A DNA stretch of 64,000 nucleotides from Chordicoccus furentiruminis. Its GTDB lineage: Bacteria > Bacillota > Clostridia > Lachnospirales > Lachnospiraceae. Shown here in pieces: positions 2,281 through 31,084 of this stretch. Every line of letters begins with the position of its first letter. Positions within the stretch are counted from its first letter, which is position 1. The notes beneath the pieces were generated by a model, which worked only from the letters and a program-made list of their open reading frames with translations, searched no databases and was not told where the DNA came from. The position numbers and the translations under genes were made by a program. The stretch lies in the NCBI RefSeq assembly GCF_019355395.1, contig NZ_CP048829.1:930001-994000 (forward strand). Direction: 5' to 3'.

Positions 2281-3054
2281 ATGATTGGTTTGTTTGCTAC
2301 AACATGTCCCTTTCCGATTTCGGGGATTTCCCCTTCTGAAACTGGGGAATTTTGTTTCCGATTCCGGGTACTTTTATTTTACGCTACACACCCGCACCAA
2401 AGATCTGTATATGTCGATGTCGAGGACTTACAGGCTGCCATTACCGAAGGAATCCATAGCTGTTTTAACAGGAATAAAGACAAGATATTCACATTTCTCC
2501 CTGAATACCTTGGCACATACATTGATCTCGTCACAGCGAGCAATAAGCTTCCATCTGGAACCCCTTCCTCATCATTGGCTACAACTGTAAAGAGGGCGAC
2601 GACTAGCCACAAGAAAGCCCGGACAATTCGGTCTGTAGATGACATTCTCGCCAGCATGTCAAAAATTACAGATACAGAAAAAGATGCTGTAACTAAGCAA
2701 AGAGTCGGCCAAGGATATTTTAAGGAATTATTGCTGAACAAGTATTCATGCAAATGTGCTCTATGCTCTATTTCAACAAAGAGCATGCTTGTCGCAAGTC
2801 ATATTAAGGAATGGTCTGTTGCAAGCAATACGGAAAAATTAGATGAAAACAATGGCCTGCTGCTCTGCGCTCATCACGATGCGCTGTTCGACAAGCACCT
2901 GATTTCTTTTGACTCATCAGGGGATGTCATAGTATCTCCGACCTTGTCTGCGTCAGAGCAAACGCAGCTTGGAATTCCATCAATTCCGAAAATCACAATG
3001 ACGCCCGCTATGGACGTATATATGGCATACCACAGAGCGCATCTGAAAAAGTAG
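2281..3054 (+). CDS. HNH endonuclease, 5'-truncated by the IS21 element
   Basis: An open frame of 257 aa whose first ~37 codons are IS21 end sequence; host-derived coding starts near 2392. The C-terminal half has an HNH fold signature: CxxC in CALCS, LVASHIKEW, then NGLLLCAHHDALFDKHLISFD. This matches HNH_2-type nucleases found in restriction systems. The region upstream of about residue 110 is not recognisable. No ribosome binding site serves the ATG at 2281, and base composition is more A+T-rich than the flanking genes, suggesting transfer. The native N-terminus would lie on the other side of the IS, outside the window. Probably non-functional. Confidence 0.7.
   Translation: MIGLFATTCPFPISGISPSETGEFCFRFRVLLFYATHPHQRSVYVDVEDLQAAITEGIHSCFNRNKDKIFTFLPEYLGTYIDLVTASNKLPSGTPSSSLATTVKRATTSHKKARTIRSVDDILASMSKITDTEKDAVTKQRVGQGYFKELLLNKYSCKCALCSISTKSMLVASHIKEWSVASNTEKLDENNGLLLCAHHDALFDKHLISFDSSGDVIVSPTLSASEQTQLGIPSIPKITMTPAMDVYMAYHRAHLKK
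2311..2368. repeat. Terminal repeats of the IS21 element
   Basis: TTTCCGATTTCGGG (2311-2324) is repeated as TTTCCGATTCCGGG (2355-2368), 44 bp apart. A short palindrome GGGGATTTCCCC (2322-2333) lies in between. IS21 elements carry several short transposase-binding repeats near each end, and these fit that pattern. The binding role is inferred. Confidence 0.6.
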
Positions 3055-3074
3055 AAAGAGGAGGCCTCTATTTC

Positions 3075-3335
3075 GTGGACATCTTACCAAGTAAATCAGA
3101 ACTCGCAAAAGTCATATTGCAGGTGATGGAAAAATCTCCCGATCCGATATCCGTTACGGTGATGAACGAAAAAGTGGCAAAAGAATTGAACCTCTCCGAC
3201 GATCTTCTGCAAATCGAGGAGATGAACGGTACAGATACTGAATTCAATTACCGCATGCGCTGGGCCCGCACGGAATTAAAGAATAAAGGGCGTATCACGA
3301 ATCCATCGAGAGGAGTTTGGGAACTCACCAGCTGA
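3075..3335 (+). CDS. Mrr-type N-terminal winged-helix protein (orphan or truncated)
   Basis: 86 aa from a GTG start, with AGAGGAGG 8-10 nt upstream. The end of the protein (RMRWARTELKNKGRITNPSRGVWELTS) is the classic close of the Mrr N-terminal winged-helix domain, which normally precedes a restriction nuclease domain. Here the frame stops right after it and no nuclease domain follows; a terminator does. It lies 20 bp after the HNH fragment and shares its low G+C, so both are probably remnants of one restriction locus. It could also be a stand-alone DNA-binding subunit. Confidence 0.65.
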   Translation: MDILPSKSELAKVILQVMEKSPDPISVTVMNEKVAKELNLSDDLLQIEEMNGTDTEFNYRMRWARTELKNKGRITNPSRGVWELTS

Positions 3336-3369
3336 GGACTGAGCCATTACTGCCGGCAATGATTGTGAA

Positions 3370-3408
3370 GCGAGCCTTAAGGGACATTCTCCCTCAAGGC
3401 TCGCTTTT
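3370..3408 (+). terminator. Intrinsic terminator after the Mrr-domain gene
   Basis: GCGAGCCTTAAGGGA (3370-3384) pairs with TCCCTCAAGGCTCGC (3390-3404), with one mismatch and a 5-nt loop. TTTT follows. It separates the restriction remnant from the convergent rlmD gene. Confidence 0.85.
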
Positions 3409-3421
3409 CCGTTGTTGTTAT

Positions 3422-4912
3422 TCAGCCTTTGTTCGTCATCTTCCTGTACTCATCCATGTCGAGGCTGACGTCCACATAGGAATCCGCCTTTACATTTCGG
3501 TGGGTCAAGAGTACTACCGTCTCGACATGGCTGGTCATCCCAAAAAGATCAACCGGCTGGACCGACCGGAGCTCATAGGCATTCCCGCTCTTTTCGACAA
3601 GGAACCGGAGGTCACGCGAAAGCGTCGCCGGGTCACAGCTCACGTAGACGATGCGGGTCGGAGCGAGCACAAGGACCGCCTGAAGGAGCTTCGGATCGCA
3701 GCCTCGGCGCGGCGGGTCGAGCACGACGACGTCCGGCCGCGGGCAGGGAACGCCCTCCGCGAAGCTGCCGCGCGCCACAAGCTCCTCGGCGGCTCCGGTG
3801 AAGAAGAACGCGTTGTGAATGCCGTTGGCGGCTGCATTCTCTTTCGCGTCCCGGATCGCGTCGGGTACGATCTCCACGCCGTACACTTCCTTCGCGTTCC
3901 GCGCCAGAAAGAGCGAGATCGTGCCGATGCCGCAGTACAGGTCGTACACGATTTCCCGTCCGGTCAGCTGCGCCGCCTCCAGCGCCTTCCGATAGAGGAC
4001 TTCCGTCTGTTCCGGATTGACCTGATAGAACGACCGGGGCGAGATACGGAAAGTCAGGCCGCCGAGCGTATCCCGGAGCCACGGGTCGCCGTACAGCGGA
4101 CGGACCGTCGGCCCGAGAATCGTGTTGCCCCGGGTCCGGTTCTCATTCAGCGAGACGGAGACAACGCCGCGCAGCGCCGTCAGGGCGCGGACAAGATCCT
4201 CTTCATGGGGAATCCGGTCACCGTTCACGATCAGGCAGACAAGACGCTGTCCGCTCCGGTTCCGGCGGATCAGAATATGACGGATGAGGCCTTTACCGGC
4301 GGCCTCGTCATAGGGGGCCACACGAAAGCGCTTCATCCAGCGGAGGATGGCGTCGTTCACCTTCTGGTTTTCCGGGTCGGTCAGCAGACAGTCGCCGACA
4401 GGGATCAGCCGGTGGCTGCGCGGCGCGTAGAATCCGGCGGCTGGCTCGGGCGCGCCGCCCGGCCCGGCCGCCAGTCCTACGGGATACTGGGCCTTGTTGC
4501 GGTATCGGTACGGCTCCTTCATACCGAGCACCGGCCGCACCGGCGGATCGGTGAAACCGCCGATCCGCTCCAGCACATTCCGGACGTACTGTTCCTTCCA
4601 TCGGAGCTGAGCGTCGTAGGCGTACTCCTGCAGGGTGCAGCCGCCGCACCGGCGGGCGTACGGGCAGGCGGCGGGCACGCGGTCCGGCGACGGCGTCAGA
4701 ATCTGCTGCACCGCGGCATAGGCGTAAGTCTTCTTCGGGCGCGTGATTACAGCGCGCACGCGATCACCGATGACTGCGTGTTTCACAAAGAGGGTATAGC
4801 CGCCGGAACGGCCTATACCCTCTTCACCGGGATCGGCCGCAAGGTGGCCGATCCCGTCTCCTTCTTTTGTAAAATCCATGATCGCCACATCGGCGATGTC
4901 ATTTTTCTTCAT
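3422..4912 (-). CDS. rlmD: 23S rRNA (uracil-5)-methyltransferase, RlmD/RlmCD family
   Basis: 496 aa. An N-terminal TRAM RNA-binding domain (about 1-65) is followed by an iron-sulfur cluster site with C83, C89, C92 and C175, then a Rossmann methyltransferase domain. The SAM loop is VYDLYCGIGTISL (323-335), DPPRRG lies at 399-404, and the catalytic nucleophile is C426 in YVSCDPATLSRD. These mark the TrmA/RumA family that makes m5U in 23S rRNA. Gram-positive members often modify both U747 and U1939; which sites apply here cannot be read. The start overlaps the yhaM stop as ATGA. Confidence 0.93.
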   Translation of the reverse strand: MKKNDIADVAIMDFTKEGDGIGHLAADPGEEGIGRSGGYTLFVKHAVIGDRVRAVITRPKKTYAYAAVQQILTPSPDRVPAACPYARRCGGCTLQEYAYDAQLRWKEQYVRNVLERIGGFTDPPVRPVLGMKEPYRYRNKAQYPVGLAAGPGGAPEPAAGFYAPRSHRLIPVGDCLLTDPENQKVNDAILRWMKRFRVAPYDEAAGKGLIRHILIRRNRSGQRLVCLIVNGDRIPHEEDLVRALTALRGVVSVSLNENRTRGNTILGPTVRPLYGDPWLRDTLGGLTFRISPRSFYQVNPEQTEVLYRKALEAAQLTGREIVYDLYCGIGTISLFLARNAKEVYGVEIVPDAIRDAKENAAANGIHNAFFFTGAAEELVARGSFAEGVPCPRPDVVVLDPPRRGCDPKLLQAVLVLAPTRIVYVSCDPATLSRDLRFLVEKSGNAYELRSVQPVDLFGMTSHVETVVLLTHRNVKADSYVDVSLDMDEYRKMTNKG

Positions 4913-28807: not shown

Positions 28808-28816
28808 TCGCGGCGG
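28808..28816. repeat. Left copy of the 9-bp target duplication of the ISAs1-type element
   Basis: TCGCGGCGG directly abuts the left inverted repeat; the matching copy is at 31076-31084. Confidence 0.9.
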
Positions 28817-28868
28817 CAGGGCTGTTTCATGAAGAGAAATTAAGATAGGTTACATCTCAGTTTTTATC

Positions 28869-28917
28869 GGGGATAGCGATTGATATACATGTCAATTGCT
28901 ACCCTCGATTTTTTTGC
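28869..28917 (+). terminator. Entry terminator inside the ISAs1-type element
   Basis: TAGCGATTGA (28874-28883) pairs with TCAATTGCTA (28892-28901) including one G-U pair, extended by GGG/CCC across a bulge, and is followed by TCGATTTTTTT. It would stop transcription entering from outside before the transposase genes, a common safeguard in insertion sequences. Confidence 0.75.
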
Positions 28918-28927
28918 ATTGTAGAGG

Positions 28928-28965
28928 TATAATGTCTTTATAGTATAGGTATATGCCACCTATAC
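28928..28965 (+). promoter_or_regulatory. Likely promoter and operator-like palindrome of the ISAs1-type element
   Basis: TATAAT (28928-28933) is a perfect -10 box, though the -35 box is weak. Just downstream GTATAGGT and ACCTATAC (28943-28965) form a perfect 8-bp inverted repeat with a 7-nt spacer, ending right before the ribosome binding site. One more GTATAGGT lies after the transposase stop (30853-30860). A binding site for an element-encoded protein is inferred. Confidence 0.55.
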
Positions 28966-28979
28966 AGAAAGGAGGCATT

Positions 28980-29561
28980 ATGCAGAAGCTGGATAAAGTC
29001 TATCCAGAGTGGGTGCAGAAGTTTCGGACGAAAGGAACTACTGTGAAGAAAAAAGGAGACGCTTATTATCTTTACAAGCGTACTTCAAAACGTGTGCCTG
29101 GCAAAAAATACCCGCAGCCGGTCGACCGTTATCTCGGAAAGATCACACCGGACGGAGTGATCAAAAGTGACATGAGGAAAGTATCTGTCAGTTCCATTGA
29201 GGTAAAGGAATACGGTTTTTCAAAAGCAGTATGGGATCTTTGCCCGGAAGATTGGAAAAAACCTCTTGGGGATGATTGGGAAGATGTCCTTCGGATCCTG
29301 ATCAAAAAGGATTCTCCGAATACATTTCTGGGAAAGGAGTATGTCATCAAAGATGAGGATGAATTCCGCTATCAGTTCGCGGCGCAGAAGTCATCTCTCA
29401 TCCGGCGGATCTTCAAGGCAACGGGGATCGAATGGGAAGAACTCACTTCCCTGAATACGATATATAAAGTTTATCTGGAGAAAGAGGCAGTCATCTCCAG
29501 GATCACATCCGAGCAGAAAGCCCTGTTGGAACGGGCCGGGATAGAACTGGAGGTCGGCTAA
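28980..29561 (+). CDS. Accessory protein of the ISAs1-type element, in frame with the transposase
   Basis: 193 aa with a strong AAAGGAGG. Residues about 25-60 (TVKKKGDAYYLYKRTSKRVPGKKYPQPVDRYLGKITPDGVI) resemble the N-terminal segment of IS1634/IS4-type transposases; no DDE catalytic core is visible. The C-terminal half is helical and charged. It ends in TAA, and the transposase frame continues in the same phase, 10 codons later at a TTG. It may be a DNA-binding partner, or the N-terminal part of a fusion made by stop-codon readthrough. The role is not established. Confidence 0.75.
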   Translation: MQKLDKVYPEWVQKFRTKGTTVKKKGDAYYLYKRTSKRVPGKKYPQPVDRYLGKITPDGVIKSDMRKVSVSSIEVKEYGFSKAVWDLCPEDWKKPLGDDWEDVLRILIKKDSPNTFLGKEYVIKDEDEFRYQFAAQKSSLIRRIFKATGIEWEELTSLNTIYKVYLEKEAVISRITSEQKALLERAGIELEVG

Positions 29562-29591
29562 GCTGTTGGGGCTGCCTGCTATGTAAGGCCG

Positions 29592-30851
29592 TTGATCGAG
29601 TTCCTTCGGACAGTTCCGGACCCAAGAAAAGAACGGAACCGGCGCCACGACCATGCGGAGATACTGCTGTGCCTGGCTATAGGATATGCGGCGGGAAAGA
29701 CATCCTATCGCAGGGCGATGGAGTGGTGCGAACGCCATATATCATTTCTCCGTACAGGGATGACATTGAAAAACGGGGTCCCATCCGTATCAACGGTCAG
29801 CAGGCTGATGTCTTCGATCGACGAGGAGTTGTTTCTTTATGCCTTTATGGAATGGATCGGAGAGATCCTGGACTCACGGGGACTGCATCTGATCATTGAT
29901 GGGAAAGCGCTGCGCGGGGCAACATCAAAGGTCCGGGGCGAACGGACCCCTATGATCATGAATGTGATCGACGCGCAGACGAAGCTCGTACTGTGCCAAT
30001 ATCCCATTGATTGTAAGGAAAACGAATGCGCGGCGATACCGAAGTTACTGAAGCTGCTGAATATCCGGGGAAGTACAGTGACTATAGACGCGATCGGCAC
30101 CAATACTGGTATCATGGAGCAGATCGTGCAGGCGGGCGGTCATTATGTATTGACCGTAAAAAGGAACAATCCAGAGACATATGAAGATCTGGTCAGAACT
30201 TTTCAGGAACTGGGAAAGACCTACGAAGACAGTCAGGCAGATGGATCCTGTAAAAAGCGGTACCAGGAACTCCTCGCAAAGTATGAGCAGGATGACCACT
30301 ATGAAAAAAACAGGGAACGGCATGAACATCGATACTACCAGGTGTGTCATGACCCGACGGTATTGGAACGGACCATGAGGGACTGGGGATCTGTAAAAAC
30401 GGTCGGATGTGTACGGCAGATACGGATACCAGTCCGGAGAAATGAGAAAGGCGAGGAGACAACGCCAGATGAAAAGACATTTTTACAAAACAGGGAAAAA
30501 ACAATAGGGGCAGACGCTGATGACGGGAGATCGGCAAAGGTCCAGATGGTCGGGGTGGTATCAGACAGAGAGCTCAGTCTGGATGAGATGGCAAAGATCA
30601 AACGGCAGCACTGGATGATAGAGAACAGTCTTCATCATGTGCTGGACGATACATTCCGGGAAGATCGCTCACCAGCTAAAAGATCCAGGAATAATCTGGC
30701 CCTGATCAGAAAGATCAGTTATAACGTGTTGAGGATAGCCTTTAAGGAAGAAATATCCCCAGGCGTTATGACTGAAAGGATGGACATATTTGCTGATAGT
30801 CCGGATCTGATCACGAAATATTTCTTCTCACCCATACTGAGCCTCAATTAA
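29592..30851 (+). CDS. ISAs1-family DDE transposase
   Basis: 419 aa. The N-terminal associated domain (LIEFLRTVPDPRKERNRRHDHAEILLCLAIGYAAGK) is followed by the catalytic domain, with Asp in LIIDGKALRG, Asp in VTIDAIGTN and Glu in QHWMIENSLHHVLDDTFRED. The start is given as the TTG at 29592, with no convincing ribosome binding site; the same frame is open back to the TAA of the accessory gene. Expression may rely on re-initiation or readthrough. Length and motifs are complete, so the enzyme is probably functional. Confidence 0.93.
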   Translation: MIEFLRTVPDPRKERNRRHDHAEILLCLAIGYAAGKTSYRRAMEWCERHISFLRTGMTLKNGVPSVSTVSRLMSSIDEELFLYAFMEWIGEILDSRGLHLIIDGKALRGATSKVRGERTPMIMNVIDAQTKLVLCQYPIDCKENECAAIPKLLKLLNIRGSTVTIDAIGTNTGIMEQIVQAGGHYVLTVKRNNPETYEDLVRTFQELGKTYEDSQADGSCKKRYQELLAKYEQDDHYEKNRERHEHRYYQVCHDPTVLERTMRDWGSVKTVGCVRQIRIPVRRNEKGEETTPDEKTFLQNREKTIGADADDGRSAKVQMVGVVSDRELSLDEMAKIKRQHWMIENSLHHVLDDTFREDRSPAKRSRNNLALIRKISYNVLRIAFKEEISPGVMTERMDIFADSPDLITKYFFSPILSLN

Positions 30852-30954
30852 AGTATAGGTAATCCGGAAGGCTCTGTAAAGGTAGAGAGGGGTATTTTGC
30901 GCTTTTTCATGAGGGAAAAAGGGTGATATTCCGGACGCACCCGCCCAATAAGGA

Positions 30955-30980
30955 AGAAACGTCGCGGAAGCGACGTTTCT
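30955..30980 (+). terminator. Hairpin after the ISAs1-type transposase gene
   Basis: AGAAACGTCGC (30955-30965) pairs perfectly with GCGACGTTTCT (30970-30980) around GGAA. The 3' arm contains TTT but no longer U run, so termination is plausible but weak. The rest of 30852-31058 holds no gene. Confidence 0.5.
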
Positions 30981-31075
30981 AGGAATCAAACCCGCCCGTC
31001 CGGAGCAGGGGAATGTAAAAATGACGTGATTCATAGTATAAAGCGGGTCGGAACAGTATTCATGAAACAACCCTG

Positions 31076-31084
31076 TCGCGGCGG
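31076..31084. repeat. Right copy of the 9-bp target duplication of the ISAs1-type element
   Basis: TCGCGGCGG directly follows the right inverted repeat and matches 28808-28816 exactly. Confidence 0.9.

Follow-up and report, generated by a model that had tools for sequence, protein, structure and literature searches.

The DNA at positions 28980-30851 of the window, the 64,000-nucleotide stretch of the Chordicoccus furentiruminis genome analysed here, raises the question of how a transposase is made when it lies behind a stop codon in the reading frame of the gene that precedes it. As originally predicted, a 193-aa accessory gene (ORF1) and the transposase gene (ORF2) share one frame, divided by a single TAA at 29559-29561, past which ORF1's frame stays open until 30851. 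Ten open codons beyond the TAA lead to the first ATG, GTG or TTG, a TTG at 29592, and the suspicion that it has no good Shine-Dalgarno (SD) site was confirmed, the sole possible one being an AAGG 3 nt upstream. From the window alone, simple arithmetic puts the chance of a shared frame at about 1 in 3 and that of ten open codons at about 0.6, and by itself the arrangement is not beyond chance.

Anatomy and mobility of the element

The features of the insertion sequence (IS) are as follows.
28808-28816, no strand: left target duplication TCGCGGCGG, from comparison of duplications across copies (L003 being the window copy)
28817-31075, plus strand: whole IS, 2259 bp, with an ISAs1-type transposase; bounds set where the identity of four copies ends, with inverted repeats and 9-bp target duplications
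28817-28833, plus strand: left terminal inverted repeat CAGGGCTGTTTCATGAA, 17 bp; most relatives have nearly the same end sequence with few changes
28904-28933, plus strand: promoter-like CTCGAT-18-TATAAT, kept in the relatives' leaders in an alignment by eye
28943-28965, plus strand: palindrome GTATAGGT-7-ACCTATAC between the -10 and the SD, from leader comparison
28968-28975, plus strand: SD AAAGGAGG of ORF1, from the sequence
28980-29561, plus strand: ORF1, 193 aa, with an N-terminal domain resembling the IS1634-family one, stop TAA at 29559-29561
29549-29553, plus strand: SD-like GGAGG shortly ahead of the ORF1 stop, from the sequence, shared with some relatives only
29562-30851, plus strand: ORF2, ISAs1-type DDE transposase, in frame 0 after the TAA, sole canonical start TTG 29592
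31059-31075, minus strand: right terminal inverted repeat, 16/17 identical to the left one by end comparison
31076-31084, no strand: right target duplication TCGCGGCGG, from the same comparison across copies

That ORF1 precedes a genuine ISAs1 transposase, making this a two-gene ISAs1 element as predicted, is borne out by the match of ORF2 to the NCBIfam model NF033564 (ISAs1; E 1.3e-67, 228 bits, cut-off 70) and by its DDE_Tnp_1_assoc and DDE_Tnp_1 domains (PF13808 and PF01609), both above cut-off; the match to the IS1634 model (E 0.01) was below cut-off. For ORF1, neither Pfam nor NCBIfam returned a hit at cut-off. Its residues 8-84 align in hhalign (97.2%, 42% identity) to the N-terminal part of L089, an IS1634-family transposase that matches NF033559 at 1.3e-46, and the IS1634-like N-terminal segment ascribed to the accessory protein therefore holds. 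The likeness is confined to the N-terminus, and ORF1 has no catalytic domain. In an AlphaFold model (pLDDT 86.6) the N-terminal part of ORF1 is strand-rich and the C-terminal part helical; the model matched nothing in the PDB at E 0.001 or better, and the sequence had no PDB match either. A model of the read-through product reached a pLDDT of 59.9, with the transposase half mostly below 50, and we draw no conclusion from it.

The two ends of the element are CAGGGCTGTTTCATGAA and the inverse of CAGGGTTGTTTCATGAA. Its promoter-like sequence was not reported by a consensus promoter scan. The leader palindrome is shared by most of the 17 leaders of relatives that were compared (missing or degenerate in L054, L055 and L047); it is possibly an operator for ORF1 or a leader hairpin, and ORF1 might bind it as a repressor. 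The left half of the palindrome, GTATAGGTA, reappears in the window at 30853-30861, directly past the transposase stop. A motif like TTTTGCGCTTTTT at 30891-30907, possibly a sub-terminal site or a terminator, recurs shortly past the transposase stop in many relatives, and the right non-coding end holds a perfect 11-bp hairpin (30955-30980), terminator-like on the minus strand, which might act as a barrier to transcription entering the element.

The single-contig genome (3,267,205 bases) carries four copies identical over 2259 bp, whose identity breaks off at the same two points and each of which has its own perfect 9-bp duplication (TCTGATCGC, ATAAATGAT, TCGCGGCGG and CTGCCTTCC). A fifth copy (L018), from the rumen MAG RUG12566 of an uncultured Lachnospiraceae, is 100% identical over 2259 bp and flanked by CCGGCGGAT, so that 9-bp duplications are found at all five insertions. 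Its host is probably a species other than that of the window genome, because the right flank (1483 bases) matches the latter only partly (67% over 403 bases). Identical copies with their own duplications mean that the split form is a recently mobile form. Given at least five moves of one identical element, ORF2 is probably still made in the window lineage.

The ORF1-ORF2 junction in relatives

Relatives were gathered with ORF1 as query, which gave 70 loci from genome contigs. Matches were found in 4 of 99 genomes of the close-relatives set (own genome included), 16 of 397 of the family and 3 of 391 of the class, with one class-level match (E 1.4e-12) being the IS1634 transposase L089; on the family and class counts, the element is largely one of Lachnospiraceae. 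A search for more relatives returned one locus from viral contigs and none from plasmids. From 109 loci plus the window we obtained 55 rows with an ORF1 end and an ORF2 start, and from these 37 distinct junctions. Left out of this count were 16 duplicates of the window copy, loci in which a contig end or a deletion has removed the C-terminus of ORF1, the N-terminus of ORF2 or both (e.g. L023, L049, L053, L098), and the remote relatives L012 and L014, which have a short ORF1 and a GTG start. Damaged copies (L029, L048, L051, L097, L104) and contig-end fragments (L054, L105) were counted, the PDPR anchor of L097 being uncertain by a multiple of 3.

Relative to ORF1, ORF2 is in the +1 frame in 35 of the 37 distinct junctions, in frame 0 in one (the window and L018) and in +2 in one (L047, with an ATGA overlap). 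The two genes are separate in all 37; the fused single-ORF versions that further copies might have revealed did not appear among them. The TAA is the same in the five identical copies, and an in-frame stop is absent from the other distinct junctions. Most copies, then, have the genes in separate frames, a result that the original prediction had itself named as speaking against its proposal, and it leaves stop-codon readthrough as a conserved device unsupported. Several apparent fusions were rejected: the long ORFs of L049, L056 and L086 are stretches of masked N, L089 and L106 are IS1634-like transposases, and L077 has an internal deletion. The last (2833-3505) is a 672-bp deletion derivative with intact ends, in which the start of ORF1 is joined in-frame to the end of the transposase.

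A tree was built from 35 transposases, two rows being too short. It shows two changes of frame, each on a long single branch, and its deepest splits have +1 members on either side. Between the ORF1 stop and PDPR there are 49 nt in 26 of the 37 junctions; the remaining +1 junctions have 43, 46, 52, 55 or 58 nt, and L047 has 47 nt. By parsimony, linker length changed about 7 times on the tree, and all +1 lengths differ by multiples of 3, as a frame-dependent link between ORF1 and ORF2 predicts. The window linker, at 57 nt against 49 in most relatives, has 8 extra bases, which places ORF2 in frame 0.

We then considered where ORF2 could start. Ten of the 35 +1 junctions (L020, L024, L028, L035, L044, L054, L055, L097, L104, L105) lack any ATG, GTG or TTG that lies in the open ORF2 frame 9 or more residues ahead of PDPR, and four of these (L024, L035, L054, L055) have no start at all before PDPR, the next one lying 15 to 21 residues after the PDPR start. 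One of the four, L035, is a full-length element (2169 bp) with a 9-bp duplication (ACTCCCAGT), present as a single copy in its genome. Shortly upstream of PDPR the relatives share conserved residues, roughly F-x-T-K-P-L. In two ISAs1 loci for which no ORF1 match was found (L118, L129), an ATG or GTG start lies about 13-14 codons before the DPR motif, roughly at the F-x-T-K-P-L position, so the ORF1 stop falls approximately where a normal ISAs1 gene begins. Among the remote relatives, L014 (1504-2998) is of the ISAs1 type and has two genes: its ORF1 is 123 aa long and overlaps the transposase gene, whose GTG start lies behind GGGGGA.

In Lachnospiraceae bacterium A4, six identical 2011-bp copies (L063-L068) that have lost 66 central residues of ORF1 in-frame occur alongside full-length copies, and a viral contig holds a seventh (L017). 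Since all of these carry 10-bp duplications and keep the +1 junction, the middle of ORF1 may be dispensable for transposition, or the 2011-bp copies may have been moved in trans.

Routes to the transposase

Coding constraint is found on both sides of the ORF1 stop. Substitutions were counted in those of 26 supplied sequences of equal linker length that were on the tree. In the last 8 ORF1 codons they numbered 30/47/29 at ORF2-frame positions 1/2/3, the peak at position 2 being ORF1's third codon position, and in the 24 bases past the stop they numbered 23/23/40. A one-sided binomial test gave 0.012 for the ORF1 end and 0.0076 past the stop, and an equal-thirds chi-square 0.055 and 0.035, respectively; the signal is modest, yet it flips at the ORF1 stop.

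We consider it probable, from sequence comparison, that this is a two-gene ISAs1 IS in whose clade a +1 slip at the ORF1 stop yields a fusion, the window being a derived case that probably relies on reinitiation at TTG 29592. ORF1 would provide an N-terminal domain akin to the one in IS1634-family transposases, and ORF2 an ISAs1 DDE transposase that lacks its own start. Some ribosomes reaching the ORF1 stop would slip +1 and produce the ORF1-ORF2 fusion, likely the full transposase, while normal termination would give ORF1 alone, likely a regulator. The prediction of a fusion next to a short form is retained to this extent, a short ORF1 with a rare fusion being the best reading for the clade; its mechanism, readthrough as a conserved device, is not. 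In the derived window lineage the 8 extra bases would have put the transposase in frame behind the UAA. A +1 shift at the window TAA meets a stop (ATG TAA, 29581-29586), so that an ORF1-ORF2 fusion is impossible by that route. Here ORF2 would most likely arise from coupled reinitiation, with TTG 29592 as the start, and the transposase would then lack a few of the usual residues; UAA readthrough is the less likely route. We rank reinitiation first from general considerations only.

The slip in the relatives would be translational. The shift box spans only 14 nt in L020, and 20 nt in each of L054 and L055, and no run over 3 occurs in the boxes of L020, L054, L055, L011 and L073; transcriptional slippage is therefore unlikely at these shortest-box junctions, which have no homopolymer, and was rejected for them. 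The stop context of relatives is mostly TGC TGA A, and TAA and TAG also occur. Immediately before the stop, 21 of the 35 +1 junctions have TGC, and the other 14 have GTG, ATG, GGC, GAC, GAT, TCC, TCT, GCC, GAA or AAA. By the pairing rules, few of these codons are expected to re-pair after a +1 step. Folding of 20 sequences showed no conserved RNA structure at the junction (-1.15 kcal/mol), and the SD-like GGAGG is strong in some members only (mean duplex -5.4 vs -3.5 in synonymous shuffles). The varied codon, the missing fold, the partial GGAGG and the canonical starts that lie far enough upstream in 25 of 35 junctions do not fit a slip throughout the clade. Each relative may use either coupling or shifting, by analogy with other gene pairs for which either route is reported in the available text of PMC3711429.

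In a possible, if unlikely, alternative the whole clade uses ordinary translational coupling without recoding, and ORF2 starts close to the ORF1 stop at ATG, GTG, TTG or a rare codon such as CTG. A canonical start at least 9 residues before PDPR is available in 25 of the 35 +1 junctions; L047 has its ATGA, L011 a well placed ATG at -5 and the remote L014 its GTG, and GGAGG precedes several stops. Coupling does not account for the ten junctions without such a start or the four without any before PDPR, the start positions differ between lineages, and free initiation would not preserve the frame through linker indels.

Stop-codon readthrough, in which the window UAA at 29559 would sometimes be decoded to give a 623-residue in-frame fusion, seems to us doubtful. 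The element is mobile, its one open frame is interrupted by a single stop, and the residues ahead of TTG 29592 (CYVRPL) resemble the relatives' F-x-T-K-P-L and so look translated. Against this, readthrough would be of no use to the relatives, 35 of 37 junctions being +1, and the window linker has no close relative in which constraint could be tested. Moreover, a UAA followed by G is a strong stop. More doubtful still is the idea that the window copies are defective and that an intact element mobilises them in trans: frame 0 is found in the window lineage alone, but the single-contig genome holds no further, non-identical copy of the window transposase (4 matches, all identical), and the defective form would also need to have reached another genome and produced a new duplication there. 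Lastly, we regard as improbable the far-reaching version in which the Lachnospiraceae ISAs1 clade has a +1 frameshift tolerant of the preceding codon and of all three stops, joining an IS1634-type N-terminus to an ISAs1 catalytic domain, and the window lineage has swapped it for UAA readthrough.

Relation to known systems and significance

Members of the ISAs1 family typically have a single transposase gene in an element of about 1.2-1.5 kb and make target duplications of 8-10 bp. The window element shares with the family (NF033564) the transposase with its DDE_Tnp_1_assoc and DDE_Tnp_1 domains, the inverted repeats and the 9-bp duplications, and differs in its 2259 bp and the preceding ORF1. 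In turn, ORF1 residues 8-84 resemble the IS1634-family N-terminus, whereas the IS1634 DDE domain is missing and ORF2 is of the ISAs1 type. The proposed organisation would resemble the OrfA-OrfAB of IS1 and IS3, with an upstream DNA-binding-type protein, a downstream catalytic ORF and a fusion that would act as transposase. The two frames of that arrangement are found in the relatives (35 of 37 in +1) and not in the window (frame 0). Programmed frameshifting in ISs is named for IS1, IS3, IS5 and IS630 and is usually -1 at A-rich sites, according to the available text of PMC5009743; here the five shift boxes named above lack an A-rich slippery site, and the shift would be +1 at a stop without a homopolymer, in ISAs1. 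IS1447, an IS of Firmicutes, would share the +1 route to OrfAB; it differs in belonging to the IS3 family and in using transcriptional slippage on an A9 run (PMC6211511, as far as its available text goes). With prfB (RF2) the relatives would share a +1 shift at an in-frame stop and, in some, an SD-like element upstream; an RF2-like shift would fit the frame and the missing starts in the relatives, not in the window. The prfB motif CTT TGA C, given in the available text of PMC3711429, is absent here, where TGC TGA is found in 21 of 35 junctions and the SD-like element is partial. As far as the available texts of the literature go, no frameshifting or two-gene form was found described in ISAs1.

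If the proposed reading is true, annotating such elements as two separate genes, or from the TTG, would be wrong, and about 35 natural shift cassettes with varying codon and stop would be useful for defining what a +1 shift at a stop requires. If the clade does shift +1 and the window lineage uses readthrough, two kinds of recoding would replace each other within one clade. A conserved +1 shift at stops in ISAs1 would extend IS frameshifting by both a family and a direction, and would also show how the N-terminal domain of one IS family came to precede a catalytic domain from a different one.
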